Assembly: GCF_014522205.1 (NCBI RefSeq)
Contig: NZ_CP046884.1
Coordinates: forward strand, 2,553,998 to 2,617,997
Direction of reading: 5' to 3'
Source of the DNA: Corynebacterium poyangense
Lineage (GTDB): Bacteria; Actinomycetota; Actinomycetes; Mycobacteriales; Mycobacteriaceae
Length of the DNA stretch: 64,000 nucleotides
Shown: positions 20,438-61,207 of the stretch, one piece after another
Position numbering within the stretch: position 1 is the first letter of the stretch
Layout of the letters: each line of letters begins with the position of its first letter
Program-made: the position numbers and the translations under genes
The notes under the pieces: generated by a model
Told to the model about the DNA's origin: nothing
Seen by the model: the letters and a program-made list of their open reading frames with translations, nothing else
The model's database searches: none

Positions 20438-22090
20438 ATGCAACCCCAGCATCTTGCCGCACCACTGTTCCGGGTCGCCCACATCCGCGCAGCGGAGGCG
20501 CCTCTGCTCCAGGAGCAAACTCATCCCGATCAGCTCATGCGTTCGGCAGCACACGCCGTCGCGGAAACAGCCCAGATGATGCTGCGCCGGACCGACTGCA
20601 AGAACGTGTTGCTTCTGGTGGGATCCGGCGGCAATGGCGGCGATGCTCTCTATGCCGGAGTTGAGCTGCTCAGCGACGGGGTGGACGTCGCTGCTTATCT
20701 GCTCTACCCAGAAAAAACTTACCAATCAGCTTGGGAGGCTTTTTGTGCCGCTGGAGGTCGGGCAATAGATCAACATGAGCTGACGGCAAAGCCCTGGGGT
20801 TTGGTGATTGACGGGCTCTTAGGGATCGGTGCTCGGGGTGGTCTTCGTGCAGAAGCGCAGGATATTGTCGCGGCGGTATCCGAATCTGCAGCACCGGTGT
20901 TAGCGGTAGATATCCCTTCCGGTGTTGACGCCGACACCGGACACGCTGGTCAACTTCATCTTTCCGCTGACCTCACCGTGACGTTCGGCGGCCTGCGCTA
21001 CGCCCACGCGCTTTCTCCGACGTGTGGTTTAGTTCTTCTGGGGAATCCGCATCTTCCCGGCCAGCTCCAGCGAAGCATTCAAGCGGAATTAGCAACTGAC
21101 GCGCCATCTGACGCCGCTGTTCTCTACGCCTGGCGAACAGAAAACATACCCGATCTTAGTGAGCCTCGTCGTCGCGGAGCATCCCTTGAGCCTATTCCCC
21201 TTTATCCCCGTTTCCCCCGGCAAGAACCCAGCATCGACGACGATAAGTACAGCGGTGGGGTAGTGGGAATTGCGGCCGGGTCGGCGAAATATCGCGGTGC
21301 CGCTACTCTATGCACTGCCGGGGCGCTACGAGCTACTAGCTCGATGGTTCGCTATGCCGGAGACTGTTGGGAACGGGTCGTGGCGACTCATCCAGAGGTG
21401 GTAGCCACAGCGACACTAACTGACTGTGGCCGAGTTCAAACCTGGGTTTTTGGCCCTGGTAGAGGGCTAGATTCCACAGCCCGTGAGGAGCTTTCTTTCC
21501 TTCTTGCCCAGCCTGAACCCCTGATAATTGATGCCGATGGGATCAGTCTGCTTGCGCAAGATTCAGCTCTCCTTGGTGCGTTAAAAGACTCGACGTCAAC
21601 CGGCCGCACAATTATCCTCACCCCTCACGCCGGGGAGTTTTCTCGATTGGCTGCCGCCATTAACACTGGTTCAGGAGATAGTTCCATGCCGGACGTGGAA
21701 AACGATAGCTTGTTGTCTGTGCGTAGCCTGGCTGGCTACCTAGGGGCAACCATCCTCTTAAAGGGGCGAACCAGCATTATCAGTACCGAACAACAATCGT
21801 TGATCGTGAATTGCGGTAACTCCTGGGCAGCAACCCCTGGATCAGGAGACGTGTTGGCCGGTGTACTAGGCGCACTCGTGGCTCGTTATGAAGCGCGAAA
21901 TAAAAGATCCGACACCGATGTTTCACGTGAAACCTTGCTTGACGTAGTGGGTGAAGCTGTTATTCTCCACGCCAGAGCAGCAGCACTAGCCTCTGAAAAC
22001 ATATATGGACAAGCTCCAATCAGTGCTGTTCAGTTAGCTAAAGCGATACCCCTAGCGTGGACGAAAGAACTGAACAACCCGGAAAACTAA
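20438..22090 (+). CDS. nnr: Bifunctional NAD(P)H-hydrate epimerase/dehydratase
   Basis: The 550-residue protein repairs hydrated NAD(P)H. The N-terminal YjeF/NnrE epimerase domain shows LVGSGGNGGDALYAGVELL near residue 53 and DIPSGVDADTG near residue 157. The C-terminal ribokinase-like NnrD dehydratase domain shows ITPHAGEF-like LTPHAGEFSRL and NSWAATPGSGDVLAGVLGAL near residue 465. GGGAG precedes the ATG. A parS-like site (21919-21934) is embedded near the 3' end and is translated as DVSRET. Confidence 0.92.
   Translation: MQPQHLAAPLFRVAHIRAAEAPLLQEQTHPDQLMRSAAHAVAETAQMMLRRTDCKNVLLLVGSGGNGGDALYAGVELLSDGVDVAAYLLYPEKTYQSAWEAFCAAGGRAIDQHELTAKPWGLVIDGLLGIGARGGLRAEAQDIVAAVSESAAPVLAVDIPSGVDADTGHAGQLHLSADLTVTFGGLRYAHALSPTCGLVLLGNPHLPGQLQRSIQAELATDAPSDAAVLYAWRTENIPDLSEPRRRGASLEPIPLYPRFPRQEPSIDDDKYSGGVVGIAAGSAKYRGAATLCTAGALRATSSMVRYAGDCWERVVATHPEVVATATLTDCGRVQTWVFGPGRGLDSTAREELSFLLAQPEPLIIDADGISLLAQDSALLGALKDSTSTGRTIILTPHAGEFSRLAAAINTGSGDSSMPDVENDSLLSVRSLAGYLGATILLKGRTSIISTEQQSLIVNCGNSWAATPGSGDVLAGVLGALVARYEARNKRSDTDVSRETLLDVVGEAVILHARAAALASENIYGQAPISAVQLAKAIPLAWTKELNNPEN
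21919..21934. other. parS site (15/16)
   Basis: TGTTTCACGTGAAACC differs from the palindromic ParB-binding consensus TGTTTCACGTGAAACA only in the last base. It lies inside nnr and is the site farthest from the origin in this window, about 42 kb away. Confidence 0.85.
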
Positions 22091-22574
22091 CGCCTCGTAG
22101 AACTTAGATAAACACGACCAGAAATCGCTGTTCCACCTATGCGGTGGGCTTTCACTGTTGGCGGGATACTCTAGATGACACATCCTAAGTGGGGCGCGTT
22201 AGTGGGGGGTGCTGGGTTTCGGTGGGGGTGCTGGGGCGCGCGATAGGGGCGAAGAATCTTCGTCTCACCTCGCGATGGCAAAGAAGGCGATATACTTCCT
22301 AGTGGGAAACTACTTTTTTGGGTTTCAGGGTAGTCACTCAGACGTTTTGCGACGTCTTGGTGGTTTCAAACGCGCAGTTTAGGGCAGCTAAGCACGAACA
22401 AATCAGCGAGGCTGAGGCTGTCATCACACACCTGTTTTCCGGTGATCCACTACGTGCTAAGGAGCACCTGTTCATAAAAAAAATTTGCTGTCGCGGAACC
22501 TCAACTGCGGGACCGCAGTCTAACCGAGTACCTGCATCACAACTGCTTGAAAAACTCACAGAGGAGGACCTGAC
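22091..22574. other. Intergenic region with possible decayed small gene
   Basis: No secure gene is visible. TATACT (22291-22296) is a good -10 element and a palindrome CGAAGAATCTTCG lies at 22250-22262. From a TTG at 22318 a frame stays open into the next gene, but the run of eight A at 22476-22483 divides it into two plausible halves: with seven A the frame would end at 22571-22573, just before the lipoprotein start. The product would be a helix-rich protein of about 85 residues of unknown function. The region may be a leader, a frameshifted gene, or neither. Confidence 0.4.
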
Positions 22575-23195
22575 GTGGCCAGACGCTCAGCACCATCTGC
22601 TTTAGGAATGGTCCTGTCCAGCATGATGATCTTGCTTTTGCTGTCTGGCTGCAGCAATGACGTATCTAAGACACAACAAGAAGAAACGACGGTAACCGCA
22701 GCTTCCGGGATTGAATTTGATCCACACATGCCCTACGCGCCTGGAGAATTCAACGCGGAAGATCCCAACTTCACACTGCGGAATATATGCGAAGACTATA
22801 CCGACGACATGGCGGCAGAGCTGGAGTTAGGGAAGAGGCTTCCCAATGTAGAGGAACCCTCTTCCGAGCATGGATACCTCTGCCAGTTTGTCCCAAAAAC
22901 ACGAATGGAAAGCTTCGACGACCTGTTTCTGGTGAATGATTCTTTCGCTAAAGAACAAATAGAGAATAATCTTGTGATTTTTCAAGATCCTCATCAATCT
23001 CGCATTCCCGGGGTCTATTCATATCTACTTAGTCCTCATGACCAGTATCAATGCACTGCTGCCTATGCTAGTAACAGCGGAAGAGTTAATCTCACTTATT
23101 TCGATTTTGATTTGAGGGGACGTCCAGAAGCGCTTTGTAATAATGCAGTACAAACACTCGAAAAAATTATTATCAGGATCGGGGGATCCCTATGA
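22575..23195 (+). CDS. DUF3558-like lipoprotein
   Basis: The 206-residue protein begins with a lipoprotein signal peptide: basic MARRSAPSA, a hydrophobic core and the lipobox LLSGC with the lipidated cysteine near residue 27. The mature part follows the DUF3558 pattern, with one cysteine near ICEDYTDDM, one in GYLCQF, one in YQCTAAY and one in EALCNNAVQTLEKI. DUF3558 proteins are exported lipoproteins common in mycolic-acid bacteria, often near type VII secretion genes; their role is unknown. GTG 22575 has GAGGAGG at 7 nt. The stop overlaps the next start by 4 bp, indicating translational coupling. Confidence 0.75.
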   Translation: MARRSAPSALGMVLSSMMILLLLSGCSNDVSKTQQEETTVTAASGIEFDPHMPYAPGEFNAEDPNFTLRNICEDYTDDMAAELELGKRLPNVEEPSSEHGYLCQFVPKTRMESFDDLFLVNDSFAKEQIENNLVIFQDPHQSRIPGVYSYLLSPHDQYQCTAAYASNSGRVNLTYFDFDLRGRPEALCNNAVQTLEKIIIRIGGSL

Positions 23196-24784: not shown

Positions 24785-24940
24785 CCTGGCAAAAACTAAC
24801 AGCCTTCTTCCAGGAAGAATCCTCACAACCTCCGCATCAACGTAAAAATACTCATTCACCAGCCCACTTAAGATAAATTACAGTGACGTAAATGGGGGTA
24901 AATAGCTACCAAAATATCGGTCTGCGTTTAGACTGCCTTC

Positions 24941-26288: not shown

Positions 26289-26304
26289 TGTTTCACGTGA
26301 AACG
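26289..26304. other. parS site (15/16) at the start of lldD
   Basis: TGTTTCACGTGAAACG differs from the consensus only in the last base. The central GTG (26297-26299) is the probable start codon of lldD, with GAAAGG just upstream. Confidence 0.85.
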
Positions 26305-29840: not shown

Positions 29841-30809
29841 ATGCTTCATCATCATCCGGCTCATGACTCTTGTGAACCTAACCTCGCCCGCGATCTCGAA
29901 GTTATCGGCGAAATCCCACCGGCCTCACTTCGTGCTCATCACCATCATCACCAAGAAATTGAAGCTCCGCTATTAGTGCGCCCCGCCATTCACGCCACGA
30001 TGTTTCACGTGGAACCAGAAATTATTGCTCGGTCCCGACAAATTCCTGTGTTTGTGCTCTTAGGTGGACCCCTGCACCCTGGGGTCAAATATACTCGGCA
30101 GCTCTTGAGTACAGCAGCCATCGAAGCCGGAGGTAGCTGGGTTTTCGCCTGGATAGATGCGGATCAAGAACCCGAGGTCATCACACAGTTTCGCCCCGAA
30201 AACTTACCTCGTCTCTACGCCGTGGCCGACGGCACTGCCATTGGATCTACTCCGCTTGGTGAAAGCGATGAGATACTCGAATGGGTCCGCAATGCGGTTC
30301 ACCACGCCGCGGCTCGACTCCCAGGACTACCAGCGGAGGCGATACTGGAACGCCCCGATCATAATTCCGGGCACACAGATTATTCGGGAGATGACGTCGA
30401 ACTTCCGGCTACGGAACTCCAACGGGCAGCTATTGCTGTTGCCGAAGGGGACTTTGAGCAGGCCCTAGAAATCTATCAGGACTTAGAACATTCGACGCCC
30501 CCAGCGCAGCACGACGTCATACTCCGCGCTCAAGCAGCGGTGGGAGTTCTTCAGCGCGCACAGAAGTCTACGCCTGGGGCAGATCCCATTTCCGTAGCGA
30601 ATGCGCATCCTGAGGATGTGTCTTTAGCGCTGGCCGCTGCTGACGCAGAGATTATTTTAGACCAGCCCGAAGACGCGATTTGTCGGCTCAAGATTCTGGT
30701 GAAAGAGCCCGAAGCCCGAGCTCGATTAATTGAAGTTCTTCGCCTGCTCCCAGCCAATCATGAGTTAGTTGCCGCAACGCGCCAGGAAATTGCAGCAGCT
30801 ATTTTTTAA
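29841..30809 (+). CDS. Thioredoxin-fold/TPR protein, CnoX (YbbN)-like
   Basis: The 322-residue protein resembles co-chaperone YbbN/CnoX in layout: an extended N-terminus, a thioredoxin-like domain (about residues 65-160, with FAWIDADQEPEV and FRPENLPRLYAVADG), and C-terminal helical repeats, one reading IAVAEGDFEQALEIYQDLE. The CXXC active site is absent, so it is unlikely to be a reductase. The N-terminal part contains AHHHHHQ, a possible metal-binding patch. TAGGGT (29828-29833) lies 7 nt before the ATG. A parS-like variant encodes MFHVEP near residue 54. Confidence 0.7.
   Translation: MLHHHPAHDSCEPNLARDLEVIGEIPPASLRAHHHHHQEIEAPLLVRPAIHATMFHVEPEIIARSRQIPVFVLLGGPLHPGVKYTRQLLSTAAIEAGGSWVFAWIDADQEPEVITQFRPENLPRLYAVADGTAIGSTPLGESDEILEWVRNAVHHAAARLPGLPAEAILERPDHNSGHTDYSGDDVELPATELQRAAIAVAEGDFEQALEIYQDLEHSTPPAQHDVILRAQAAVGVLQRAQKSTPGADPISVANAHPEDVSLALAAADAEIILDQPEDAICRLKILVKEPEARARLIEVLRLLPANHELVAATRQEIAAAIF
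30001..30016. other. parS-like site (14/16)
   Basis: TGTTTCACGTGGAACC has two changes from the consensus, one next to the CACGTG core. It lies inside the thioredoxin-fold/TPR gene and may be a weaker ParB site. Confidence 0.55.
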
Positions 30810-30845: not shown

Positions 30846-33718
30846 CTATTTCACAACCAGGTTAACCATCCGGCCGGGCACAACGATGTGCTTGACGATA
30901 TCCTTGCCGTTGACCGCAGCACTGACCTTTTCTTCAGCTACCGCCGCCGCAATAATCTCATCCTGGGACGCATCCGCAGCGACCATGATTCTGCCACGAA
31001 CTTTCCCATTGACCTGCACCGGAAGTTCAATTTCCGCATCATGCAACCATTTCTCATCAAAAGTGGGGAAAGGTTCATAGGTAATGGTGGCGTCATGCCC
31101 CAGACGACGCCACAACTCTTCAGCAATATGCGGTGCCACCGGGGAAACCATAATGATCAGCGGCATAATCGCTGCCACAGGGGTGTGCTGGGTATAGGTC
31201 TTTGTCAAATAATTGACGTAGCCGATGAGCTTTGCCACCACGGTGTTCATCCGCAGTTGCGCATAATCTTCCCGCACTCCAGCAATAGTGCGATGAAGCT
31301 GCCGCTGATCCTCCTCACTCAAAGGCAGATCTTGGGCTACAACTTCTCCGGTATTTTCATCAATGACTAAACGCCACAAACGCTGGAGGAAGCGTTGCGC
31401 ACCCACCATGTCTTTCGTGGCCCACGGCCGGGAGGTATCCAAGGGGCCCATAGACATCTCATAAACCCGGAGAGTGTCAGCCCCGTATTGAGCGCAGATC
31501 TCATCGGGAGAAATGGAATTCTTCAGGGACTTGCCCATCTTCCCATATTCTTGGAAGACTTCTTCTCCCTGCCACCAATACTTTCCGTCGCGTTCCTCTA
31601 CCTCAGCGGCTGGAACATACACACCACGAGCGTCTGTGTAGGCGTAGGCCTGAATATATCCCTGGTTATAGAGGCGCCGATAAGGTTCTGTAGAGGTGAG
31701 ATGTCCCAAGTCGTAGAGAACTTTGTGCCAGAAGCGGGAGTAGAGCAAGTGCAAAACTGCATGTTCTACACCACCAACATAAAGATCAACTCCGCCGGGA
31801 TCCTGTGGTCCGTGTAGATCAGGACGCGGTCCGGTCCAATAGCGCTCATTCTCAATATCGCAGAAAGCTTCATCATTAGCTGGATCAATATAACGCAACT
31901 GATACCAGGAAGATCCAGCCCACTGCGGCATAACATTGGTATCTCTGGTGTACTTGCGTGGGCCGTCACCTAGATCAAGCTCTACCTCCACCCAGTCTTT
32001 CACTTTCGCTAACGGGGGTTGAGGCTCACTGTCGGCATCCTCCGGATCAAAGGCCACCGGATTATAATCATCCACCTCAGGAAGCTCTACCGGCAACATA
32101 GATTGCGGCAAAGCGTGTGGAATTCCATCCTCGTCATAAACGATAGGGAAGGGTTCCCCCAGTAGCGCTGCCGAGCAAACAACCAATCCCTTAATTTATA
32201 TTGGATCTTTTCCCGCCCGGCTCCGGCTTCTTCAAGCCACGCAATGGTCTGGGAGATGGCCTCATCTTTCGCTAAACCATTGATGTCCAAGCCTGCGTCA
32301 TTAGCTGAATTCACCGCCTCGCCAGATTCAGTGAAAGCTTCCTCTGAGATATTTCCGCCAGCAACCACTTCCACAATTGGTAAACCAAAAACTGTGGCGA
32401 ATTCATAGTCTCGGACGTCATGGGCAGGCACCGCCATAATGGCGCCTGTTCCATATCCAGTCAGAACATAGTCAGCAATAAAAATCGGGATCTCTTGTCC
32501 ATTAACCGGATTAATTCCATAGGCCCCCAAGAAAACACCCGTTTTTTCCTTATTTTCCTGGCGCTCTAAATCCGATTTAGCAGCAATGGCCTCGCGGTAT
32601 GCTTGCACCGCTGCAGAGGGCGAGTCCTGTCCGAAAGTCCACCTCGGGTCAACACCGTCATAGTTTTGGGTGCCTCCCGCCACTAACTCATCAACAAGCT
32701 CATGCTCCGGAGCCAAAACCATATAGGTAGCACCGAATAGCGTATCCGGCCGAGTCGTAAATACCGTTAGGGTGTGGTTCTGCGCGGTGAAGTCCACCTC
32801 CGCACCTCTAGAACGCCCAATCCAATTTCGTTGCATGGATTTGACTTTTTCCGGCCAATCCAAATACTCAAGGTCATCAAGCAAACGATCAGAATATGCG
32901 GTAATCCGCATCATCCACTGAGAAAGGTTCTTTCGGAAAACCGGATAGTTGCCGCGCTCCGAGCGTCCATCCGCGGTCACTTCCTCGTTTGCCAGCACGG
33001 TGCCTAACCCTGGACACCAATTGACTAGGGACTTTGAACGATAAACCAACCGGAAGCTATCAATAACCTCTGCCTTGCTTAGGGCGTCTAAATCCTGGAA
33101 AGTACCGCGGTCGGCAAACTCCTCCGGAAGAGCAATCTCTCCGCTTTCCAAAAGTGGAATGAGCTCTGCGATCGGGCGCGCCTTTTGGGCATCCTGGTCA
33201 AACCAGGAGTTGAAGATCTGCAAGAAGATCCATTGGGTCCAGGTGTAATACTCCGGATCAGTAGTAGCTACTGAACGTCGTTCGTCGTGCCCCAAACCTA
33301 AGAGGCCTATTTGCCATTTCATATTGGCGATATTGGCCATGGTCGTGGTGCGCGGATGTGTACCCGTTTGGATAGCGTATTGTTCCGCCGGCAAACCAAA
33401 CGCGTCGAACCCCATGGTGTGCAGCACATTCTTACCCAACATGCGGTTGTAGCGAGCGTAGGCGTCAGTGGCGATATAACCAAGCGGGTGACCCACGTGT
33501 ACCCCTGAGCCAGAGGGGTAGGGGAACATATCTTGAACAAAAACCTTATCCGCCGGGAGCTTCTTCCCGTCCTTCGGAGCGAGTTTCCCTACTGGGTTGG
33601 GAGCATGAAAGGTGCCGTTCTCATGCCAATATTTCTGCCAACTACGTTCAATCTCATTCGCCAATTCCGGAGTGTACCGATGCCCGGTCTCCACGCTGCT
33701 ATCGCTCGCTTTCGTCAT
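30846..33718 (-). pseudogene. leuS: Leucyl-tRNA synthetase, interrupted by a single frameshift
   Basis: Two overlapping frames together give a full-length class I leucyl-tRNA synthetase of about 957 residues. The N-terminal frame (32087-33718) holds the HIGH-type motif HVGHPLGY, the editing domain with [13 protein letters not shown], and runs to [12 protein letters not shown]. The C-terminal frame (30846-32186) resumes with [12 protein letters not shown] and contains KMGKS and the anticodon-binding domain. The break coincides with a run of five C (five G on the coding strand) at 32156-32160; six would restore one frame. Because leuS is normally essential and single-copy, a sequencing or assembly error is the likeliest cause. 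TACACT lies 8 nt before the ATG, suggesting a leaderless mRNA. Confidence 0.9.
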
Positions 33719-33765: not shown

Positions 33766-33819
33766 AAAAACTCGCCGGTTTCACGTGAAACATCGTCATA
33801 TTTTCACGAACCGGCGAGT
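33766..33819 (-). terminator. Terminator after the symporter gene, with parS in the loop
   Basis: A perfect 11-bp stem joins 33809-33819 and 33770-33780, and on the minus strand it is followed by TTTTT (33766-33770). The 28-nt loop contains most of a parS site, which also forms part of the stem. It would end transcription of the symporter gene before leuS. Confidence 0.75.
33777..33792. other. parS site (15/16)
   Basis: GGTTTCACGTGAAACA differs from the consensus only in the first base. It is intergenic, between the symporter gene and leuS, and overlaps the terminator hairpin. Confidence 0.85.
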
Positions 33820-35936: not shown

Positions 35937-37544
35937 ATGACTCACCTCCATCAAGAAAAACCTCCAGCACTAGAGGTCATTCGACGCAGCATCCCTTATC
36001 AAGAAGAGGCTTCCGCATTATTCGAACGGCTCGGCGGGGTCTCGGCAACTGATTCGGTGTTATTGGAAAGCGCGGATATTACCACCCACTCCGGTATTAC
36101 CTCGGTCATGGTGTTATCCGCATCTCTACGGCTAAGTTGCTTCGGCCAAAAAGTCTATGTTCAAGCTCTAAGTCCGTCGGGCGCGGCCTTATTGGCTCAG
36201 CTCACGTCTCAGCTCCAGGACTATCAATGTGCCACTACCTTGCCGGACACTAGTGCGTTCCATTTCCCGATATCACATGCCGCCGATGAGCGAGAACGTC
36301 TCAAAGCAATCAGCACTATGGCACCACTCCGACAGCTTCAATTCCATTCCGGTATTCAAGACAGCAGCGGCACCATGCCATTTTTAGCCGGCGGATGGGC
36401 TTTCGACTATCTAGCTACTTTCGAGTCACTTCCCGAAGTAGCGGAATCTAGCAATACCTATCCGGATTACCAATACATCATGGCTGAGGTTCTTCTGGAG
36501 ATTAATCACCAGGAGCACACTGCACAGTTAACGGCGGTGGCCACGGCTGATGATCTTGATCGCATACAGGAACAACTGGACGCTATTGAAGAGATTTGTA
36601 GCACTGCTCCGGCTCCTCGGGAATGTTTCACGGGAAACATGAATCCATCCCCACTCCATGTCCATGCAAGTATTGCGGATGAGCCTTTCCGCTCCATCGT
36701 GGAAGATTTACAGCAGGAAATTGAGCGGGGAGAGGTCTATCAAATCCTTCCGGCCCGCAATTTCCACACGGATTGTCCTGACGCCTTCGCCGCCTATAAA
36801 GAACTGCGTCGAACTAATCCAAGTCCCTACATGTTCTATATTCGCGGCAGTTCTTCCTTAGAACAGCATCACCCCTACGAACTTTTTGGCGCCTCTCCGG
36901 AATCTAATCTTAAGTTCACCGCCGCAAACCGTGAGGTTCAGCTTTATCCCGTAGCTGGGACCCGCCCCCGCGGCCTCAACCCCGATGGCACAGTTAACCA
37001 TGAACTAGATATTCGCGCCGAATTGTATATGCGCACTGATGCCAAAGAGCTCGCCGAACACATCATGCTAGTAGACCTAGCTCGGAATGATTTAGCGAGA
37101 GTAGCCCTCCCAGCTACTCGAAAGGTAGCTGATTTACTTCACGTAGATCGGTATTCCCGGGTCATGCATCTAGTCTCCCGGGTAGTAGCAACGTTGGACC
37201 CAGAGTTCGACGCCCTGGATGCTTATCGCGCATGTATGAATATGGGGACGTTAACCGGCGCGCCCAAGTTACGGGCCGCAGAATTGATCCGATCAGTAGA
37301 AGGGCAGCGTCGTGGTAGTTATGGCGGTGCTGTGGGCTACCTCCGCGGCAATGGAGATATGGACAACTGTATTGTGATCCGGTCAGCCTATGTCCAGGAC
37401 GGAAAAGCGAATGTTCAAGCTGGTTGTGGGGTAGTCCGTGACTCTCGTCCCCAAGCTGAGGCCGATGAAACTTTGCACAAAGCTTACGCCGTTCTTCACG
37501 CCATAGCGCTGGCAACCGGCCGTCCATTAGAGGTGATCCGATGA
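35937..37544 (+). CDS. trpE: Anthranilate synthase component I
   Basis: The 535-residue subunit converts chorismate to anthranilate using ammonia supplied by TrpG. The chorismate-binding half shows ELFGASPESNLKF, LYPVAGTRPRG, HIMLVDLARNDLARV, YSRVMHLVSRV, MGTLTGAPKLRA and GSYGGAVGYL in the expected order. ATG 35937 is preceded by AAAGG about 15 nt away; a longer in-frame start at 35874 overlaps the terminator and is rejected. It overlaps trpG by 4 bp. A parS-like variant with a changed core is embedded at 36624-36639. Confidence 0.95.
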   Translation: MTHLHQEKPPALEVIRRSIPYQEEASALFERLGGVSATDSVLLESADITTHSGITSVMVLSASLRLSCFGQKVYVQALSPSGAALLAQLTSQLQDYQCATTLPDTSAFHFPISHAADERERLKAISTMAPLRQLQFHSGIQDSSGTMPFLAGGWAFDYLATFESLPEVAESSNTYPDYQYIMAEVLLEINHQEHTAQLTAVATADDLDRIQEQLDAIEEICSTAPAPRECFTGNMNPSPLHVHASIADEPFRSIVEDLQQEIERGEVYQILPARNFHTDCPDAFAAYKELRRTNPSPYMFYIRGSSSLEQHHPYELFGASPESNLKFTAANREVQLYPVAGTRPRGLNPDGTVNHELDIRAELYMRTDAKELAEHIMLVDLARNDLARVALPATRKVADLLHVDRYSRVMHLVSRVVATLDPEFDALDAYRACMNMGTLTGAPKLRAAELIRSVEGQRRGSYGGAVGYLRGNGDMDNCIVIRSAYVQDGKANVQAGCGVVRDSRPQAEADETLHKAYAVLHAIALATGRPLEVIR

Positions 37545-38226: not shown

Positions 38227-39255
38227 ATGACGAACTCTTCCACAGTTGATGGCTTAATTGCTTACTTAGATAATCCGCACCCGACGGTCGAGGAAGCTGT
38301 TGATGTCTTTACCCCGCTCACGGTGGGGGAATACGACGATATCCACATTGCAGCTTTGCTCTGCACGATCCGAACTCGTGGTGAAACCTTTGCTGATCTA
38401 GCCGGGGCTGCGCAAGCTTTCCTCGCTGCTGGTCGAACCTTCCCGATCACCGGGAAGGGACTCCTAGATACAGCGGGTACCGGGGGAGACCATGCGAATC
38501 TCATTAATATCACCACCGGCGCTTCCCTCGTTGCCGCAGCGGGTGGATGCAAATTGGTGAAGGTGGGTAACCGTTCCGTGTCCTCACAGTCTGGTTCTGC
38601 CGATGTTCTCGAAGCAATGAACATTCCCCTAGATTTGGACCCGGATCGTGCTGTTCGTCAATTCAAGGCCTCTAATTTCACTTTCTTGTTTGCTCCGGCC
38701 TATAACCCCGCGGTAGCTCATGTCCAACCCGTTCGTCGAGCTCTGAAAATCCCCACGATCTTCAATACTCTTGGACCGGTATTGTCTCCTGCCCGACCGG
38801 AATTTCAAATCATGGGAGTAGCTAATCCCCAGACCGGGAGAATGATTACTGAGGTTTTCCGAGAATTAGGTCGCAGCCGCGCTTTGGTCATCCACGGGGC
38901 CGGCACCGATGAGCTTGCTGTCTGGGGAGATTCCCAAGTCTGGGAATTATCTCCTGACGGAGAAATCAAGGAATACCTGGTAACTCCGGATGATTTAGGG
39001 GTAAAACGTCATCATCTTTCCGATCTCAAAGGCGGCGACGCTCAACAAAACGCAGCCCACCTCTATGCAGCCTTTGATGGCACCGGACCAGAAGCGCATC
39101 GCGATGCTTTGGCCGTGAGCGCCGGAGCTATGTTCTATCTCAACTCTATGGTGGATGATTTTGCTTCTGGCACCGCCATGGCCCAGAAGCTTATGGCCGA
39201 TGGCACAGTCCGCGACTGGCTTCGTACCCACGAGGAGGCAAATTATGCAGAATAA
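38227..39255 (+). CDS. trpD: Anthranilate phosphoribosyltransferase
   Basis: The 342-residue enzyme joins anthranilate to phosphoribosyl pyrophosphate. The PRPP-binding loop DTAGTGGDHANLINIT is near residue 80, GNRSVSSQSGSADVLE near residue 114, and the anthranilate region HVQPVRRALKIPTIFNTLGP near residue 160. It follows trpG by 11 bp and overlaps trpCF by 11 bp. Confidence 0.95.
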   Translation: MTNSSTVDGLIAYLDNPHPTVEEAVDVFTPLTVGEYDDIHIAALLCTIRTRGETFADLAGAAQAFLAAGRTFPITGKGLLDTAGTGGDHANLINITTGASLVAAAGGCKLVKVGNRSVSSQSGSADVLEAMNIPLDLDPDRAVRQFKASNFTFLFAPAYNPAVAHVQPVRRALKIPTIFNTLGPVLSPARPEFQIMGVANPQTGRMITEVFRELGRSRALVIHGAGTDELAVWGDSQVWELSPDGEIKEYLVTPDDLGVKRHHLSDLKGGDAQQNAAHLYAAFDGTGPEAHRDALAVSAGAMFYLNSMVDDFASGTAMAQKLMADGTVRDWLRTHEEANYAE

Positions 39256-40702
39256 TATTCCCACTGTCTTAGAGGGGATCGTTTCTGCCCGACGCCGCCA
39301 TCTACCGGACATCCGTCAACGGATTAGTCATGTAGACCCGGCAGTATTGCCTCGTTCTCAGCGTTCGCTTTTTCACGCCCTTGGTGGCGGGGATCCTCAA
39401 GGGCGTATCAATCAGAACCGCTACATCATGGAATGCAAGTCTGCATCCCCCTCCCTGGGTTTAATCCGGAAAAATTATTCCCCAGGAGAAATTGCCCGGG
39501 TATATTCCCGCTACGCTTCTGCTATTTCGGTCCTGTGCGAACCAGAGAAGTTCGGTGGGGATTATGACCACCTCGCTACTGTTGCAGCGTCCACTCATCT
39601 TCCCGTGCTCTGTAAGGATTTCATCATTGATCCCGTGCAGCTTCACGCAGCACGTTATTTTGGGGCAGATGCTGTTTTGCTTATGCTCTCCGTCCTCGAA
39701 GATCAAGAGTATCGGGAATTAGCAGCCGAAGCTGACCGCTTAGGGCTTGATGTTCTCACCGAAGTAATCGACGAAGATGAAGTTTCACGTGGAACATCCT
39801 TAGGCGCCAAGATCTTTGGCGTCAATCACCGTAATCTGCACGATCTCAGCATCGACCTTAGCCGTTCATCGCGTTTGGCACGCCATATTCCTCCGGATGC
39901 CGTGCTGGTTTCGGAATCTGGGATTCAAGACCACCACACTATCCGGAAACTCGGTGGTCATTCTCATGCCTTCCTCGTGGGTTCCCAGTTAACGAGCCAG
40001 CCCGATATTGACCGAGCTGCTCGCTCCTTGGTCTTTGGCACCCATAAGGTCTGCGGGTTGCAAACACCCAGTGCGGCCCAAGTTGCCCGAGCCTGCGGAG
40101 CCATCTATGGTGGTCTCATTTTTGAACCAAGCTCTCCCCGCAATGTTTCACGTGAAACAGCCGAAAAAATTATAAGCGCCGAGCCTGGTTTGGAATATGT
40201 GGCGGTGTCTCGTCGAGAGTCCAGGTGGTCAGAACTCACATTCGACGGTATCTCGGTCCTGCAACTTCACACCCCACTTCATCGCTCAGTGGCTGAAGAA
40301 CTGGAATTCCTCAACCGCGTCCGGGAAGACGTCGGACCGCACATCCGACTGTGGAGAGCAATATCAATGACTGAACCCCATAGTGCAGACATTGCCCGAG
40401 AACTGTCTCGCTGCCAAGACATAGAACTGCTAGTTTTGGATTCCCAGCACGGGGGAAGTGGCCAAACCTTTAATTGGTCTTCTATTCCTCAGGAGATCCT
40501 GGCGAAATCACTTCTAGCTGGAGGTATCAACGAAGATAACCTCACCGCAGCTTTAGCCGTAGGATCTGCGGGTATCGACATAAACTCCGGCGTAGAGTAC
40601 CCCGTCTCTTCCGGCACGTGGGCACATCATAAAGACGCAGCTGCCCTCCACCGCATATTTAGCATTATTCACAATGATTTCGAGGCTAAAGATGACAACT
40701 AA
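39245..40702 (+). CDS. trpCF: Bifunctional indole-3-glycerol phosphate synthase/phosphoribosylanthranilate isomerase
   Basis: The 485-residue protein fuses TrpC (about residues 1-255) and TrpF (about 260-485). TrpC shows [50 protein letters not shown] and LVSESGIQ; TrpF shows [26 protein letters not shown] and [10 protein letters not shown]. Together they perform the isomerisation and ring-closing steps before tryptophan synthase. A strong GAGGAGG lies 6 nt before ATG 39245, settling the start although the frame is open to 39155. Two parS-like sites lie in this gene, one perfect. Confidence 0.95.
39781..39796. other. parS-like site (14/16)
   Basis: AGTTTCACGTGGAACA differs at the first base and at one base beside the core. 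It lies in the TrpC part of trpCF and is translated as EVSRGTS. Confidence 0.5.
40144..40159. other. parS site (perfect 16/16)
   Basis: TGTTTCACGTGAAACA, the perfect palindrome, lies in the TrpF part of trpCF at the domain junction and is translated as NVSRETA. Confidence 0.92.
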
Positions 40703-44466: not shown

Positions 44467-44482
44467 TGTTTCACGTGAAACA
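44467..44482. other. parS site (perfect 16/16)
   Basis: TGTTTCACGTGAAACA overlaps the start of the next gene; its central GTG (44475-44477) is the probable start codon, 9 nt after AAAGG. Confidence 0.92.
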
Positions 44483-45299: not shown

Positions 45300-45416
45300 C
45301 TAACCAACAACCGGTAGTCCTTTATGACGCCCGATAATGATCTGGATACAACCCTTTTCATCCGCCTCATCCAGAGTTCTCTGAAGCATCTTCCATCGCC
45401 GAGGAGTGGGTTTCAC
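45300..45416 (-). CDS. Possible 38-residue small protein, parS-started
   Basis: The minus-strand frame starting at GTG 45416 (inside the parS site at 45409-45424) encodes 38 residues, beginning VKPTPRRWKMLQRTLDEADE and ending IGRHKGLPVVG. It starts 15 nt after the yqgE stop, and composition looks protein-like, with an amphipathic helix and a beta strand. No good ribosome-binding site is visible and the family is unknown; conservation would decide whether it is real. Confidence 0.35.
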   Translation of the reverse strand: MKPTPRRWKMLQRTLDEADEKGCIQIIIGRHKGLPVVG

Positions 45417-45424
45417 GTGAAACC
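45409..45424. other. parS site (14/16)
   Basis: GGTTTCACGTGAAACC keeps the 14-bp palindromic core with both outer bases changed. It lies 8 bp downstream of the yqgE stop codon. Confidence 0.8.
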
Positions 45425-48619: not shown

Positions 48620-51336
48620 TGCCAATCCGTCGTTTCTGCGCTCTCCTCGGGATCAGTGCTCTTTCTGCTGCTTTCGGCACGTTATCCTTAGACCTAACAC
48701 TCACCGCTGCTCCAGCTCAGGCTCAAGGAGTAGCCGTCCCCTTGGATATCACTAACCCTTCAGTCGCAGTCCAGTGGGATAACCCAGCACTACGTAGTGA
48801 TGACCGTCAGTCCTTTGTCTCAATGGAGCTGGAAAGCCTGCCTCAAAGCCTTAGCAACCCCGGAGACGGCCTGAGGTTTCACGTGAAACTCCGCAATAAC
48901 GGAGAGGAACGGATAAGCAACATCAATGTCGTGCTACGTCGGGGAGAAGCCCAGCATTCAGCTGCCGAAATGCGTCGTATCATGGCCCTCAACGCAGGCG
49001 CCTATACCGCAGCGCACTACCAAGCACCGGTAGATTTTTCCCTCGAACCTGGAGAATCCCGAGAATTCTGGGTAGAAGCTCCCACCAACTCTGACCAACC
49101 TGGCTCTTTTCCCATCAAAGATCCCGGTATCTATCCCATTTTCTTTGGGCTCGACGGCACGACGAACCACACCGGGACGGTGCAATTAACGAGTCAGCGT
49201 TTTCTCCTCAGCGCTGGTCCGCTCGGGGGCACAAATACCAATCCAGGCCAGCCGAGCGCAGAGGAGACCCATGATGCAGAAGAATCAGCGACGTCCTCGG
49301 AGGTTTCGGGAACAGGGTTGAGTCTCGTCCTTCCGCTAAGTGCCTACGTTGACATCATTCCTGGAGAAACAGGTGAAGCCCCTGGGGATACCCCTTTGGT
49401 GCTTTATAGCGATGACCTAGCTGATCAACTAAGCGCTGGGGGGCGCCTGGGTGAGCTATTAAAAACCTATAAAACATATCTTCAAGGTGAGAATAATCCC
49501 ATCCGTTCCTCGGCCTGCTTAGCCATTGACCCAGCATTATTGGATGCGGTCCATCGGATGACGAAAGGCTACACGGTCGCAAATTCTCGACCTGCCATCG
49601 AAACCTCAGGGCAACGCCTTCGGGATAGCTGGAATTCCCACAATTCTCAGTCCGGTGAACATCCTGGTTCCGGTTCAGCAGCGGCTCAACAATGGCTTGA
49701 TGAATTAACCAGCCTCGCTAGCAATACCTGCGTTGTCTCCTTACCCTGGGCTAATACCGATCTCAACGCGGTAGCTGCCAGCAACAATCCTTGGCTTATG
49801 CGTGAAGCCCTAGGACGTGGACCTGAGCTCATCAGTTCTATCCTGAACACGTCGACCGTAGAAAACGTCGTTATCCCAGGGAATGGGTATATTACTCCCG
49901 CAACCGTTCGGAGTTTGGGCTGGGCTACTAGTGGTAGTGCGCAGTCGGTGACTGATTTCAGCACGAAGATTGAAAAAGATTTTGAAGCTGAGGCTCAACG
50001 CCGTGGAACCCAGAATTCTCAAGATTCAGAAACCAGCCTTAATGATGAGAATATGCCTTCCTCTGCGCCGCTGGCGCCTCCCGTGCCGAGCCTAGAAAAC
50101 GCAGTATCGGTGTTAGTAGCCGGAAATACGGTGTGGGATTCGAATCGAGTGGACAGGTTTACCCAACTAGCGCCGGGAATTCGTGCGGTGAGTTATCACG
50201 CTTCTTTGGCCGCCAGTTTAGGCGAAACAGGGGAGCACCCAGATACCCCCGCCTATGCCAATCCTGATGCCCGCTATGATGCCCGTCTTGACTCACCGGC
50301 GGCCCGTGATTCTATTGCGGCAGGTGCCCTAGCCATGTCTCTTACAGAGACGAGTAATCAATCGCAACAGCATTCTGGCCCGGTCCTCATGATGCCCCCA
50401 GCGGAGCTTAGCACCTCCACGGCGGAAAGCATCTTGCAAACTGCTGCGTCGCTTTATGCCTCGGGCCGGGCTGAGAGCCTGAGTCTGAGTGATTACCTAA
50501 CCCCAGATCCGCAACAGGCTGCGGCGTTGAACGCTACGCCTGAAGCAGCAGACAATGCTCCCCCCACCGCTGAGGTCGGCTCCCCATATCCAGATCCCGG
50601 CATTATTAGCGACACGGAAATTCTGCAGGCTAGCCGAGAAGCCGGATTTAGTGATGACCTCACCCGGTTGTTGAGTAATGACCCGACTATCGCATTAACC
50701 CGCTATGCTTTCACTGCTCCGCTACGTCAGGAAGTGCTCCGTACCCTAAGTGTCTGTGATCGTCATGCGGCTAGTACCTATCAAGCTGCGGTACAACGAA
50801 CGGGAGATCGGCTCAAAGAAAATCGGGAGCGGCTCCTTGCTTTAGGTCGTGCCGTCACCTTAATCCCCCCTGGCGGGGTTTATACCCGTACCTCTGATTC
50901 TTCACCCTTATTGGTGGTGGCAGAAAATCGTCTACCACTTCCGGTGGAAACTGTTGTTCAATATCGAGCCCCTAGCGGTGTTACTCTACAAACTCCCGGC
51001 TCGGTGAGAATCCCGGCGTCTGGTTCCATTACGGTGCAATTGACACCGAAGATCCCACCCGAGCATGATCGTACTCAGTTGCAATTGTGGTTATCGACCG
51101 GCGACGGCGCAGCAATTTCCTCTCCGGTGGATATCACAGTGCAAAACCGTGCCAATTTCTTTAGTACTTCTGGGCTGGCCCTGATTGTCCTCAGCGCTTT
51201 GGCGTTGATCCTGGTTTTCCGGGTTGGCCGGCATAGCAAACGGTTGAAACACCGCGGTGTGTCTCATCCAGCTGCTGCGCCTTTCCGTCCCCATTATCCC
51301 GATAATGAACAGAATGGTCCCCGTGAACCCTACTGA
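48616..51336 (+). CDS. DUF6049 exported envelope protein
   Basis: The 906-residue protein has an N-terminal signal peptide ending near APAQAQG (about residue 38), a long extracytoplasmic part and a C-terminal membrane anchor [16 protein letters not shown] followed by basic [12 protein letters not shown]. It corresponds in position and architecture to mycobacterial Rv3909, next to the lipid II flippase gene; the function is unknown. GTG 48616 or ATG 48619 are both possible; each overlaps the NUDIX stop. A parS site (48875-48890) is embedded and translated as RFHVKL. Confidence 0.85.
48875..48890. other. parS site (14/16)
   Basis: GGTTTCACGTGAAACT keeps the central 14 bp of the consensus and differs in both outer bases. 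It lies inside the DUF6049 gene. Confidence 0.8.
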
Positions 51337-56993: not shown

Positions 56994-57011
56994 CTGGTAT
57001 TATTTTTTATC

Positions 57012-57047
57012 AGCCGACGCCCCACGCAGAACGGAGTAAAGTCGGCT
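57012..57047 (+). terminator. Hairpin between thioredoxin and cwlM genes
   Basis: AGCCGAC (57012-57018) pairs with GTCGGCT (57041-57047) over a 22-nt loop. No T run follows, so it may be a processing or leader structure rather than a terminator. Confidence 0.35.
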
Positions 57048-57080
57048 TCACACTGATGCTTGGATGAGGGAAGGAGAACC

Positions 57081-58265
57081 GTGGCAGAGGTCCTCAGGGT
57101 TGGTGATCACAGTCCACGCATTGCCGAAGCTCGAATGACTTTGGCTCGTCTCGGACTTCTCTCCACCTTCGAAGGAGACATCGGATCTCAGCGTTCGGAT
57201 CGTTTCACCGATGCAGATATGTTCTTTGACGCTGATCTATCCGAAGTTCTTAAAGCCTTCCAGCAATCCCGCGGCATTATTCCCACGGGAGAGATTGAAG
57301 ACGCCACACTCCGCGAATTGCGCCATGCCAGTTACCGGCTAGGGGCTCGGGTCTTATCTTTTCAGGTGAACCACGAGCTCATTGGTGATGACGTCGGACA
57401 GCTCCAAACTCAGCTCCAAGAACTCGGCTTTTATTCTCACCGAGTAGACGGCCATTTTGGTCAGTTCACTCATGACGCTTTAGTCAATTACCAACACAAT
57501 TCCGGCCTGCGGGCAGATGGAATGTGCGGTCCAGAAACTATCCGTGCCCTCAGTCTTTTAGGCCGACGCATTACCGGTGGTTCCCCTCAAGCTATCCGTG
57601 AGCGAGAGCATGTTCGGGCCGCTGGACCGATGCTTGCCGGTAAGCGTGTAGTTATTGACCCTGCTCTCGGCGGGCGAAATAAAGGTCTTAAGGTACAGGG
57701 TCGATTTGGTGAGATCACCGAGGAAGAGATTCTCTGGGATCTTGCTACTCGCATTGAGGGCAGAATGATCGCCCTAGGAATCGAAACTATAATTTCTCGC
57801 CCCCGCATGGATGATCCTGACCATAAGTCCCGAGCTGAGATCGCCAATGCTTTTGATGCTGATTTAATGATCAGCTTGCAGTGTGACCGGTACCAGAATG
57901 AAAAAGCCTCTGGGGTTGCTACCTTCTATTTTGGCAGCGAGATCGGAAATAGTTCGCTGACCGGGGAGATGCTTTCGGGCTATATCCAGCGAGAAATCGT
58001 AGCTCGGACCAACATGGTTAATTGCGGCAACCATGCCCGGACTTGGGATATGTTGCGGCTGACCATGATGCCCACCGTAGAGGTAGTTACCGGATACCTC
58101 ACGAATCCCGACGATCTTGCCGTCTTAAGCAGCATCGAGGGCAGAGAAGCCATCGTTGAAGCTATCCTTATTGCCGTCAAGCGCTTATATCTGCTTGATC
58201 GAGGCGATGATCAACCCACCGGAACATACCGTTTCGATGAATTACTCAAAGCGGAAGGCATTTAA
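57081..58265 (+). CDS. cwlM: CwlM-type pseudo-amidase, regulator of peptidoglycan synthesis
   Basis: The 394-residue protein has two peptidoglycan-binding repeats (about residues 8-70 and 95-155; HFGQFTHDALVNYQHNSGLRADG) and an amidase_3 domain (about 185-375). Two of the three zinc-binding residues are gone: the usual GHGG histidine is Leu in IDPALGGRNKG and the usual SIHAN histidine is Gln in SLQCDR. In mycobacteria CwlM is such an inactive amidase that activates MurA. GTG 57081 has AAGGAG 5 nt upstream; the frame is open to TTG 57060. Confidence 0.9.
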   Translation: MAEVLRVGDHSPRIAEARMTLARLGLLSTFEGDIGSQRSDRFTDADMFFDADLSEVLKAFQQSRGIIPTGEIEDATLRELRHASYRLGARVLSFQVNHELIGDDVGQLQTQLQELGFYSHRVDGHFGQFTHDALVNYQHNSGLRADGMCGPETIRALSLLGRRITGGSPQAIREREHVRAAGPMLAGKRVVIDPALGGRNKGLKVQGRFGEITEEEILWDLATRIEGRMIALGIETIISRPRMDDPDHKSRAEIANAFDADLMISLQCDRYQNEKASGVATFYFGSEIGNSSLTGEMLSGYIQREIVARTNMVNCGNHARTWDMLRLTMMPTVEVVTGYLTNPDDLAVLSSIEGREAIVEAILIAVKRLYLLDRGDDQPTGTYRFDELLKAEGI

Positions 58266-58309
58266 CCTCCCAACCCCTCAACGCGCCACGCTGGAAGGCT
58301 GCCGGTTTG

Positions 58310-59479
58310 TTACTGGCTTTGCCCTAGCAACCCCATAATTCTTTCAAAATCCTCTTGGTCGCTAAATTCCACCGTCAACTTCCCTTTGCGCTTACCCATA
58401 CTGACAATCACCCGCGTATCTAGATCATCAGCCAAGCGCTCCGCTGCATGTTGCAAATACTCCGGCGGCGGCGTTTTTTCTCGTGGTTTTCGCTGCGCTA
58501 CCTTGTCTCCCCGATTCATCAACGTGACGGCTTCTTCAGTAGCCCGAACAGAAAGCCCTTCAGCGATAATTCGCTCCGCTAACTCATCTTGTAAGTCCAC
58601 CACTGGTTCGGCTTTAATCCCTAACAGAGCGCGAGCATGACCAGCGGATAACACCCCGGCGGCCACTTTTCGCTGAACCGCCACCGGCAACGACAACAGC
58701 CTAATCATATTGGTAACTACCGGCCGGGATCGGCCTAGTTTTTCGGCAAGCTCCGCCTGGGTGACCTGGAATTCCTCCAATAATTGTTGATAGGCGGCAG
58801 CCTCTTCTAAGGGATTAAGCTCAACGCGGTGAATATTCTCTAAAAGAGCATCCCGCAATAGCGTCGAATCTTCACTCTCACGGACAATAGCCGGAATCAT
58901 ACTCAACCCAGCTTTTGCACTCGCCCGCCACCGGCGTTCACCCATAATAAGCTCATAGCCCTCGCCCTCCGGGTGAGGCCGCACCACAATGGGTTGCAAC
59001 AACCCAAACTCACGGATCGAATGCACTAATTCAGCAAGCGCATCTTCCTCAAACACCGTCCGTGGCTGTTGCGGGTTAGGAACTATCTGCCCGATGGGAA
59101 TTTCCTGATAGTGCGCACCCACCTCGGCGCCTTCCGCCGGGGCTGGCACCCGCACCGGGACGTCTCTTCTGTCCCGTGGATTAAGTTTCCCACCGCCAAT
59201 AATCACATCTGCTGCCGCTCCTCCCAGTCCACGCGAATGACTGAGCTTTTCTGCCACACTCGGCGCGGTTTTCGCGTCTGCGTGTGCGTCCTCTGTCCTC
59301 GCACCATCCTGACCGGCAGAAGAGGACACAGGTTCTTCGTGAGGTGAGGTCGACGTCGGCCCTTGCGGACGATGTTCCTGTTCCCTGGGGTTGACCCGGT
59401 GTGTGGTTTCATCCGGCACCATCAATGCAGCTAATCCGCGGCCTAAGCCACCTCGCTGACGGCCTGATTTCTTTGCCAT
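58310..59479 (-). CDS. parB: Chromosome partitioning protein ParB
   Basis: The 389-residue protein binds parS and spreads as a CTP-dependent clamp. The basic N-terminus [11 protein letters not shown] (ParA interaction) is followed by [22 protein letters not shown], the CTP-binding motif [12 protein letters not shown] near residue 175, helix-turn-helix [26 protein letters not shown] near residue 240, and the C-terminal dimer domain. ATG 59479 has AAGGAG 11 nt upstream; GTG 59488 would leave only 2 nt. It is 62 bp downstream of parA. Confidence 0.93.
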
Positions 59480-59541
59480 GGTGTTCACTACTCCTTATAA
59501 AAATTCATGGAACTTAGCTTCTTCAGACTGTCAGGTGCTGC

Positions 59542-60456
59542 TTAGCGTTCCGTGTCATGTGCCGCTGCGGGACTTATCCCAATGGGTCCGCTTTCTGGAC
59601 CCGGGAGGTAATCGCCGCGTTGGGCAAGCTCTCGCGCCGCGTCCCGATAAGATTGTGCCCCTCGAGAAGACGGGTCATACTGCAAGACAGTTTGCCCAAA
59701 TCCTGGTGCCTCAGAAATCCGCACCGATCGCGGAATGAGGGTTTTTATTACCACATCGCCGAAGTGTCCGCGGACTTCTTCAGCAACTTGTTCTGCTAGA
59801 TTCGTTCGGCCGTCGTACATAGTCAGCAAAATCGCCGAGATGTGAAGATCTGTGTTGAGGTATTGCCGAATCATGCTGATGTTATTAAGAAGCTGACCCA
59901 CCCCCTCTAAGGCGTAGTATTCGCACTGAATCGGGATAATGACCTCATCGACCAGCGTCATCGCATTAATCGTTAATAACCCAAGAGAAGGTGGGCAATC
60001 AATTAACACATAATCAAATTGGTGTTTGTCCAAAAACTCGCCGCGCACTGCGTCATAGAGCCGGTATTCCCGACGCACCAAACTGACCAATTCAATTTCT
60101 GCACCCGCCAGGTCAATTGTTGCCGGAATGCAGTACAGGGAGTCAAAGTCCGGGGACTTTTGCATTGCTTCATCAGCCGTGGCGTCACCAATAAGCAACT
60201 CATAGGTAGAGGTAGTTCCTGCTCGGTGCTCGACGCCGAGAGCCGTAGAAGCATTACCTTGGGGATCAATATCTATAACCAGTACCTTTAAACCGGCCTC
60301 CGCTAATCCCGCTGCCAAGTTCACCGAGGAGGTCGTTTTCCCTACGCCACCCTTTTGATTCGCAATGGTGATAAGCCGAGGTCGCTCCGGTTTCGGAAGC
60401 CTGCCCTCATGGAGTGCACTCTCGCGCTGGGCACTCTTATCATTCTGCTCAGCCAT
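59542..60456 (-). CDS. parA: Chromosome partitioning ATPase ParA
   Basis: The 304-residue ATPase drives separation of origin regions. The deviant Walker A NQKGGVGKTTSSVNLAAGL, Walker A' LVIDIDPQGNASTALG and Walker B VLIDCPPSLGLLTINAM appear in order. The charged N-terminal 35 residues are outside the core. ATG 60456 is preceded by AAGGAGAGAGGG 12-24 nt upstream; TTG starts further upstream (60465 and 60516) cannot be excluded. Order rsmG-parA-parB is conserved in the phylum. Confidence 0.93.
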   Translation of the reverse strand: MAEQNDKSAQRESALHEGRLPKPERPRLITIANQKGGVGKTTSSVNLAAGLAEAGLKVLVIDIDPQGNASTALGVEHRAGTTSTYELLIGDATADEAMQKSPDFDSLYCIPATIDLAGAEIELVSLVRREYRLYDAVRGEFLDKHQFDYVLIDCPPSLGLLTINAMTLVDEVIIPIQCEYYALEGVGQLLNNISMIRQYLNTDLHISAILLTMYDGRTNLAEQVAEEVRGHFGDVVIKTLIPRSVRISEAPGFGQTVLQYDPSSRGAQSYRDAARELAQRGDYLPGPESGPIGISPAAAHDTER

Positions 60457-60536
60457 CGACGTCAAACGCCCTCTCTCCTTACCCGTTGGCTCCGGCGTGC
60501 CGGCCTCCCCCGGCAATGATTTCTACTGTAGTGCTT

Positions 60537-61199
60537 CTACCTGACTCGGGGGATCCTTACTAGCGTTGTAGCTTGAGACAGGTATTTCCCCCCAACCTGA
60601 ACCACTTCCGGAGCACCGCCACCAGCATTACGAATCGCTTTAGCGTCGCGCTCAATTTCTTCGGTGACGGAAGATCCTTTCATCGCCACCATCATTCCAC
60701 CGCGCCGAACCAAGGGTAAAGACCAACCGCATAATTTCCCCAAGGGCGCTACTGCCCGCGAAGTCACGATATCTGCACCGCTAGCTTTAAAGCGCACAGC
60801 TTTATCTTCTGCTCTTCCTCGGATCACCGAAACATTCTTTAACCCCAGTTCAGATACTATTTCCTGCAAATAGGTGGAACGTTTTAACAGGGGTTCAATC
60901 AACGTGATCTGCAACTGTGGTCGAGCTATAGCGAGCGGAATACCCGGTAACCCAGCGCCTGAACCGACATCAACCACAGAGGCCTTTTCCGGCATCGCTT
61001 CAGCAATAACGGCGCAATTAAGAATGTGGCGTTCCCACAGCCGCGGAACTTCACGAGGTCCAATAAAACCACGCTGAGCACCATCGCTAGCCAAAGAACG
61101 ATGATAAGCTACCGCCACGCTTAGGTGCGTTCCGAAAATCTCGCGCGCAACCTCGGGCGTCGGATCTAACTCAGGGTCGCTCAGTGGTTCTGGTTTCAC
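60537..61199 (-). CDS. rsmG: 16S rRNA (guanine-527-N7)-methyltransferase
   Basis: The 220-residue SAM-dependent enzyme methylates G527 of 16S rRNA; loss gives low-level streptomycin resistance. RLWERHILNCAVIAEAMP and the SAM-binding VVDVGSGAGLPGIPLAIARP are visible, then VTSRAVAPLGKLCGWSLPL. GTG 61199 lies inside a parS site and has AAAGG 9 nt upstream; ATG 61217 and GTG 61208 are in frame but poorly spaced from it. The jag gene found between rsmG and yidC in mycobacteria is missing. Confidence 0.92.
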   Translation of the reverse strand: MKPEPLSDPELDPTPEVAREIFGTHLSVAVAYHRSLASDGAQRGFIGPREVPRLWERHILNCAVIAEAMPEKASVVDVGSGAGLPGIPLAIARPQLQITLIEPLLKRSTYLQEIVSELGLKNVSVIRGRAEDKAVRFKASGADIVTSRAVAPLGKLCGWSLPLVRRGGMMVAMKGSSVTEEIERDAKAIRNAGGGAPEVVQVGGKYLSQATTLVRIPRVR

Positions 61200-61207
61200 G
61201 TGAAACA
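61192..61207. other. parS site (15/16) at the start of rsmG
   Basis: GGTTTCACGTGAAACA differs from the consensus only in the first base. Read on the minus strand it encodes FHVKP, and its GTG is the probable rsmG start. It is the parS site nearest to oriC in this window, about 2.5 kb away. Confidence 0.88.

Follow-up and report, generated by a model that had tools for sequence, protein, structure and literature searches.

The last 64,000 nucleotides of the Corynebacterium poyangense contig NZ_CP046884.1 (hereafter the window; C1:2553998-2617997 of a single contig, C1, of 2,617,997 bases, with dnaA at C1:109-1506) almost certainly hold the chromosomal centromere of this bacterium, that is, some ten functional parS sites distributed across approximately 40 kb of the left arm beside the replication origin (oriC), at which the ParB protein encoded in the same window would load. 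Provided that the contig closes into a circle, the window forms the left flank of oriC. We see directly which sites are present, how they cluster, how far they are conserved and which genes surround them, and by analogy with C. glutamicum and the wider ParB family we expect ParB to bind and spread there, SMC to be loaded and ParA to move the region. Centromeres of this kind are already known, and the new part is comparative: one site is conserved in position within the fused gene trpCF across the genus, and the centromere as a whole appears to have moved.

A cluster of parS sites beside oriC

The window contains several copies of the 16-bp palindrome TGTTTCACGTGAAACA, 11 of them with at most three mismatches, against 0.19 expected from 100 shuffles (standard deviation 0.44, largest count 2), which upholds the contention of the initial annotation that such recurrence is unlikely by chance; its coordinates and sequences for all 11 sites proved exact. 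Eight sites share the common core TTTCACGTGAAA, two of these (40144 and 44467) matching at 16/16 positions, while two others (30001 and 39781) carry GGAA on one side and one (36624) has the altered core CACGGG. Scanning the whole genome with up to two mismatches returned 12 sites, 11 inside the window cluster and one at C1:102097; with up to three mismatches there were 19, compared with four for a reversed-pattern control, and the seven with exactly three mismatches all fall outside the window. Because 11 of the 12 best sites lie in a stretch of 39.3 kb, or 1.5% of the chromosome, site density is far from even over the genome. Measured on the circular contig, the cluster runs from 2.9 to 42.2 kb to the left of dnaA, with neighboring sites 0.36-4.4 kb apart save for a single gap of 12.3 kb. 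The proposal that the sites occupy one side of oriC holds for these 11; it does not hold for the twelfth, a GGAA site across dnaA at +102 kb.

Sites of this type are general in the genus. All 121 sampled Corynebacterium genomes have GTTYCACGTGRAAC sites, 751 in total (median 6, range 2-22), with 12 for the control as read from the table, and four genomes, including that of the window, have at least 11. One genome (G031) has 22 on at least three contigs (C4, C7 and C34), twice the next highest count among the 121 if one genome with 12 is set aside.

Segregation proteins encoded with the cluster

The cluster adjoins its presumptive machinery. Family searches confirmed that the window encodes both ParB and ParA: parB (58310..59488, minus strand) matches TIGR00180 at 211 bits against a cut-off of 58, and parA (59542..60516, minus strand) has ParA/MinD-type ATPase matches, the best being NF041546 at 2e-31, below its cut-off. 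Next to them lies rsmG (gidB; 60537..61217, minus strand; TIGR00138, over cut-off), with a parS in its first codons, and SMC is encoded elsewhere in the genome (C1:1595766-1599221). The window ParB aligns with the Caulobacter and Bacillus subtilis ParB structures, and its closest named relatives come from Corynebacterium. Jalal et al. 2020 (PMC7383237) give the specificity residues as R, T, A and G in ParB and as Q, K, K and R in Noc, base positions 1 and 6 being read by residues 173 and 201. At the places of Caulobacter residues 173, 179, 184 and 201, the window ParB has R, M, S and G by hand count in a phmmer alignment, two of the four being identical to Caulobacter ParB. Because these two base-reading residues match ParB and not Noc, the window protein is, as judged from its sequence, of the parS-binding kind.

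By analogy, ParB dimers would load at each parS, close and slide outwards, and the zones of the spaced sites would merge into one large ParB domain reaching from about the trp genes to oriC. The zones would be expected to join because the largest gap is 12.3 kb, whereas in C. glutamicum ParB spreads up to 16 kb on each side of its sites, with SMC loaded there (Bohm et al. 2020, PMC7083940). SMC would be loaded within this domain, and ParA would move it, such that the origin region is segregated first.

A parS site fixed within trpCF

One site stands out for its conservation. The trpCF fusion (39155..40702, plus strand; probable start 39245; NF006945 at 530.7 bits, cut-off 380) contains two parS sites, of which that at 40144..40159, a 16/16 match read as N-V-S-R-E-T, is the genus-wide anchor. 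Each of the 226 genomes searched yielded a relative at the protein level; with E-values read by eye, 176 have fused TrpCF and 50 have TrpC only. From the fused genomes 150 trpCF genes were listed, and the other 26 genomes stand outside the counts of the site. In 140 of the 150, GTTTCACGTGAAAC occupies the codons of site 40144 (112 found through coordinates and a context pattern, 28 through codon reading). Likewise, when the cluster regions of 18 other genomes were mapped to the window genes, 15 of the 16 with trpCF had parS at these codons, and the other sites varied among species, with recurring places at the end of trpA, in the gap between the bile-acid symporter-like gene and yqgE, and at the start of rsmG.

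The conservation resides in the DNA. Across 61 aligned trpCF genes, no other 14-nt stretch is as well conserved as that of the site (rank 1 of 1230), and for 30 genes chosen by similarity alone it again ranks 1 of 1258, being identical in all 30, with a pair identity of 1.0 as compared with 0.59 at the next place and a median of 0.010. Under free codon choice, the codons GTT, TCA, CGT and GAA would be expected together at about 8e-4 per gene. The eight trpCF genes without the site encode other residues there (A-V-D-A-G-T, S-V-T-P-E-Q and others), residues that the enzyme evidently tolerates, and for this reason the site would seem to dictate the TrpF residues rather than the reverse. On a TrpCF tree calculated without the site columns, which includes all ten non-exact genes but 51 of the 140 site-bearing ones, lack of the anchor needs four changes, three of them forced.

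Conservation extends to other intragenic sites. Comparison with the nearest relative (G219, at 77% for ParB) found five of the seven comparable 14-bp cores within genes to be identical (those in rsmG, the 906-aa gene, the TPR gene and both in trpCF, thereby including both GGAA sites), against a background of 306 identical 14-mers among 32,477 coding ones (0.94%; 283 of 30308, or 0.93%, without an out-of-frame murJ row). The assertion that sites have been kept despite coding constraints is good for these five; it does not extend to the sites in nnrD and trpE, which the relative lacks.

The individual sites

By ORF (open reading frame) overlap, eight of the 11 sites are intragenic (in nnrD, the lldD-like start, the TPR gene, trpE, trpCF twice, the 906-aa gene and the rsmG start) and three (33777, 44467 and 45409) intergenic. 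The description of the sites as lying mostly within genes stands as a count, softened by 26289 (lldD) and 30001 (TPR gene) being at or near a likely start codon and by the trpE stretch being unalignable in relatives. A canonical parS can be read through in two frames only, as V-S-R-E-T or F-H-V-K, the third giving TGA; the trpE site uses that third frame, its stop avoided through the changed base of CACGGG. The GGAA form converts the TGA to TGG, and the right-arm GGAA site sits in this frame of an ORF (C-F-T-W-N). That site (L200 10097-10112) lies among short, broken-looking ORFs resembling a flavin adenine dinucleotide (FAD) oxidoreductase.

In order of position, TGTTTCACGTGAAACC (21919..21934) lies in nnrD, in frame V-S-R-E-T, at codons not shared with G219, whose nnrD has a site elsewhere. 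At or before the start of a flavin mononucleotide (FMN)-dependent dehydrogenase gene resembling lldD is TGTTTCACGTGAAACG (26289..26304), and in G219 one lies 46 bp away from the lldD match. The GGAA variant TGTTTCACGTGGAACC (30001..30016) is close to where a gene for a TPR_20 protein probably begins (M-F-H-V-E-P), with an identical 14-mer in G219, and GGTTTCACGTGAAACA (33777..33792) falls between leuS and an SDF symporter gene, lacking a counterpart in G219, although another genome (G136) has sites in this gap. Within trpE is the doubtful parS-like TGTTTCACGGGAAACA (36624..36639), with CACGGG; within trpCF, upstream of the anchor, is the GGAA variant AGTTTCACGTGGAACA (39781..39796; E-V-S-R-G-T), which G219 and G100 also carry at these codons. 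The second 16/16 match (44467..44482) is intergenic, downstream of the bile-acid-sodium-symporter-like gene, which is named from appearance and had no family hit. Beside yqgE lies GGTTTCACGTGAAACC (45409..45424), of which the copy beside yqgE in G219 is one base off; GGTTTCACGTGAAACT (48875..48890) is in the 906-aa gene (R-F-H-V-K-L), its 14-mer identical in G219; and GGTTTCACGTGAAACA recurs at 61192..61207 in the first codons of rsmG (M-R-K-V-F-H-V-K-P), a site of the old style found order-wide.

Three further observations concern the surroundings of such sites. The essential gene leuS (30846-33718, minus strand) is broken into two ORFs that overlap but differ in frame, the break falling in the 32087-32186 overlap, which reflects either a sequencing error or a real lesion. 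Two Corynebacterium records have a parS inside parB (L150 at 18163, from G093, and L015 at 3268), and a near-parS of the CACGGG type (TGTTTCACGGGAAACT) lies beside the SDF gene of another species (L147 at 10675, from G006). Searches of the window for Rfam families returned no match, and a tRNA search found none.

An apparent move of the centromere

Comparison across the order suggests that this arrangement is derived. We think it probable that the centromere moved a single time in Corynebacterium, from sites around rsmG-parA-parB to a trpCF-anchored cluster 17-140 kb away. On this reading, a new parS would have arisen within a fused, proteobacterial-type trpCF on the branch that acquired this gene and, as the anchor, would have dictated five TrpF residues throughout the remainder of the clade, while the older sites disappeared or dwindled to a single one at the start of rsmG. 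Outside the genus, 62 of the 63 named loci have a parS at or close to the start of rsmG (43 at the offset seen in the window, 19 within about 70 nt), as opposed to two of 17 named Corynebacterium loci with one at the rsmG start. The 63 records are mostly titled Mycobacterium, Nocardia, Gordonia, Rhodococcus, Williamsia and kin, and two titles look wrong: a 'Kitasatospora arboriphila' record (L057) shares its parS places with Williamsia muralis (L037), and a 'Chloroflexi' record (L058) looks mycobacterial. Both are probably mislabelled or contaminated.

Within the genus, presence of trpCF marks the divide. In a hand-picked, nonrandom comparison (20 of the 50 trpCF-less genomes and 20 of the 176 with trpCF), all 20 trpCF-less genomes have two to nine sites within 5.5 kb of parB (mean 4.2), as against seven of the 20 trpCF genomes with one site each (mean 0.35), at the rsmG-start distance. 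Of the 117 genomes in which trpCF and parB share a contig, 116 have them 17-140 kb apart (median 22.9 kb), and in the remaining one the interval spans the contig ends. A six-protein tree with eight outgroup genera, built by a quick method with no bootstrap, places the 22 trpCF genomes in one clade (SH-like approximate likelihood ratio test, SH-aLRT, 100) nested among the others. The simplest history would accordingly be that the cluster moved once, along the branch that saw the appearance of trpCF. Fused TrpCF scores above cut-off in three of 248 genomes of the order, all three among the five Corynebacterium sampled, and the window TrpE passes the cut-off of a proteobacterial model. Lateral transfer of trp operons was reportedly described by Xie and colleagues in 2004, and the TrpE match would fit such an origin. 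If the single-move reading is true, then the window genome shows both centromeres, having a trp-anchored cluster and one old-style parS in rsmG. We found no earlier description of the positional conservation in trpCF or of the move in the titles and abstract starts of the open-licence literature; for intragenic or positionally conserved corynebacterial parS, and likewise for parS in connection with trpCF, PMC7083940 alone was relevant there, which is no proof of absence.

Alternative explanations and points against

Could the palindromes serve something other than chromosome segregation? Regulator sites commonly have CACGTG as their core, and two of the sites (26289 and 61192) are at gene starts, as operators of a transcription regulator with targets that happen to be near oriC might be. 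However, most sites lie inside coding sequence or downstream of genes, the would-be targets are unrelated to one another, and the sites are concentrated at oriC in a genome encoding a matching ParB; moreover, the identical sequence is a ParB-bound parS by chromatin immunoprecipitation (ChIP) in C. glutamicum (PMC7083940). We therefore reject a transcription-factor regulon as exceedingly improbable. No more credible is that the intragenic sites are held by selection on protein alone (N-V-S-R-E-T in TrpF, M-F-H-V-K-P in RsmG). V-S-R-E-T is indeed invariant in 51 of 51 aligned site-bearing TrpCF proteins, but the third codon positions are invariant as well, in what is the top-ranked 14-mer of trpCF, and the siteless genes differ in those very residues; purely protein-level conservation is rejected on the fixed wobble positions and on these substitutions.

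It is somewhat easier to imagine, though we consider it unlikely, that only canonical sites work and that the GGAA and CACGGG forms are decaying, functionless copies. In C. glutamicum, no recruitment of ParB was seen at sites with three mismatches or more (PMC7083940), and CACGGG is unconserved and has the Noc-type C at half-site position 6. Two bases distinguish ParB sites from Noc sites, and the changed one is among them (PMC7383237); because of it weak binding is expected. The trpE site, for which no older precursor emerged because the stretch is unalignable in relatives, is probably weak or not a parS. Decay sits poorly with the GGAA sites: both keep their 14-bp sequence in G219, and 12 loci outside Corynebacterium (Nocardia, e.g., L016, L019 and L023) use the GGAA form as their rsmG parS. 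The codons of 39781 recur in three of 49 trpCF genes, counting the window's own, and in none of 12 in a further set; besides G219, the third is G100, in which the main trpCF site is damaged and a GGAA site is one of only two pattern matches. Because they are conserved, the GGAA sites are probably real.

Several observations weigh against a centromere of about ten sites or against its single move. One good site, C1:102097-102112 (TGTTTCACGTGGAACA), lies off the cluster, at a distance of 102 kb from dnaA along the right arm. The sites at 33777, 44467 and 36624 and that in nnrD lack a counterpart at the same place in G219, two window sites lacking one at any ORF position there, and because of this some sites may be young or dispensable. 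The specificity residues come from a hand-counted alignment, which is weaker than a structure. The anchor is absent from eight of the 150 listed trpCF genes, with one more in the GGAA form (G057) and one altered by a single base to CACATG (G100), and the trpCF context pattern occurs by chance elsewhere in two trpCF-less genomes. The sister placement of one trpCF-less group reaches 89% SH-aLRT only; the move of the cluster and the acquisition of trpCF both resemble single events, and their link would be the coincidence of the two branches. Finally, the layout differs from that of C. glutamicum, because the cluster there begins 73 kb from oriC, compared with 2.9 kb between dnaA and the nearest window site, and is mostly intergenic, with nine of its ten sites between genes versus 6-8 of 11 window sites overlapping genes (PMC7083940).

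Weighed together, a parS cluster served by the adjoining ParA and ParB, as initially annotated, remains the best reading once corrected for the twelfth site, the CACGGG variant and the coding-constraint claim; the cluster would be of the relocated corynebacterial type, arranged around the trp operon with a fixed trpCF anchor and one additional site at the rsmG start. The position of a bacterial centromere can be traced across some 226 genomes, with an apparent single move, and its main site has been retained within an enzyme gene, the price being a fixed protein sequence. These comparisons make testable how parS sites are gained and turned over, and why one intragenic site persists while its neighbors come and go. 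They also carry a caution: the invariant V-S-R-E-T of these TrpF domains should not be taken for an enzymatic motif.

Comparison with known systems

Noc and its binding sites (NBS) offer a related protein family and a 16-bp palindrome, and the CACGGG site shares one NBS base (PMC7383237). Noc is confined to Firmicutes according to the same source, whereas the window ParB carries ParB-type base-reading residues; Noc-binding sites are rejected here, the window sites not being of the TATTTCCCGGGAAATA type and the Q/K/K/R Noc residues being absent from the window ParB. Other Mycobacteriales use the same parS sequence, and the offset of the window rsmG site (11 nt) matches that in 43 of the 63 non-Corynebacterium loci. 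In their 20-kb loci, parS lies around rsmG-parA, whereas ten of the 11 window sites are 15-42 kb from dnaA, around trp.

The closest precedent is C. glutamicum, for which Bohm et al. 2020 (PMC7083940) describe ten ChIP-confirmed parS, including one in trpCF, all within 35 kb to one side of oriC, so a wide one-sided cluster is not new. The ten C. glutamicum sites are identical, whereas several window sites are variants and one is in rsmG. The C. glutamicum-type TrpCF structure 7etx reads S-P-R-N-V-S-R-E-T, apparently the same codons as the window site, and in that species parS1, the trpCF site, sufficed alone for near-normal growth, segregation and arm alignment (PMC7083940). With about ten 16-bp parS on one side of oriC over some 35-40 kb, ParB, ParA and SMC, and a site in trpCF, this genome extends the known arrangement to another species.

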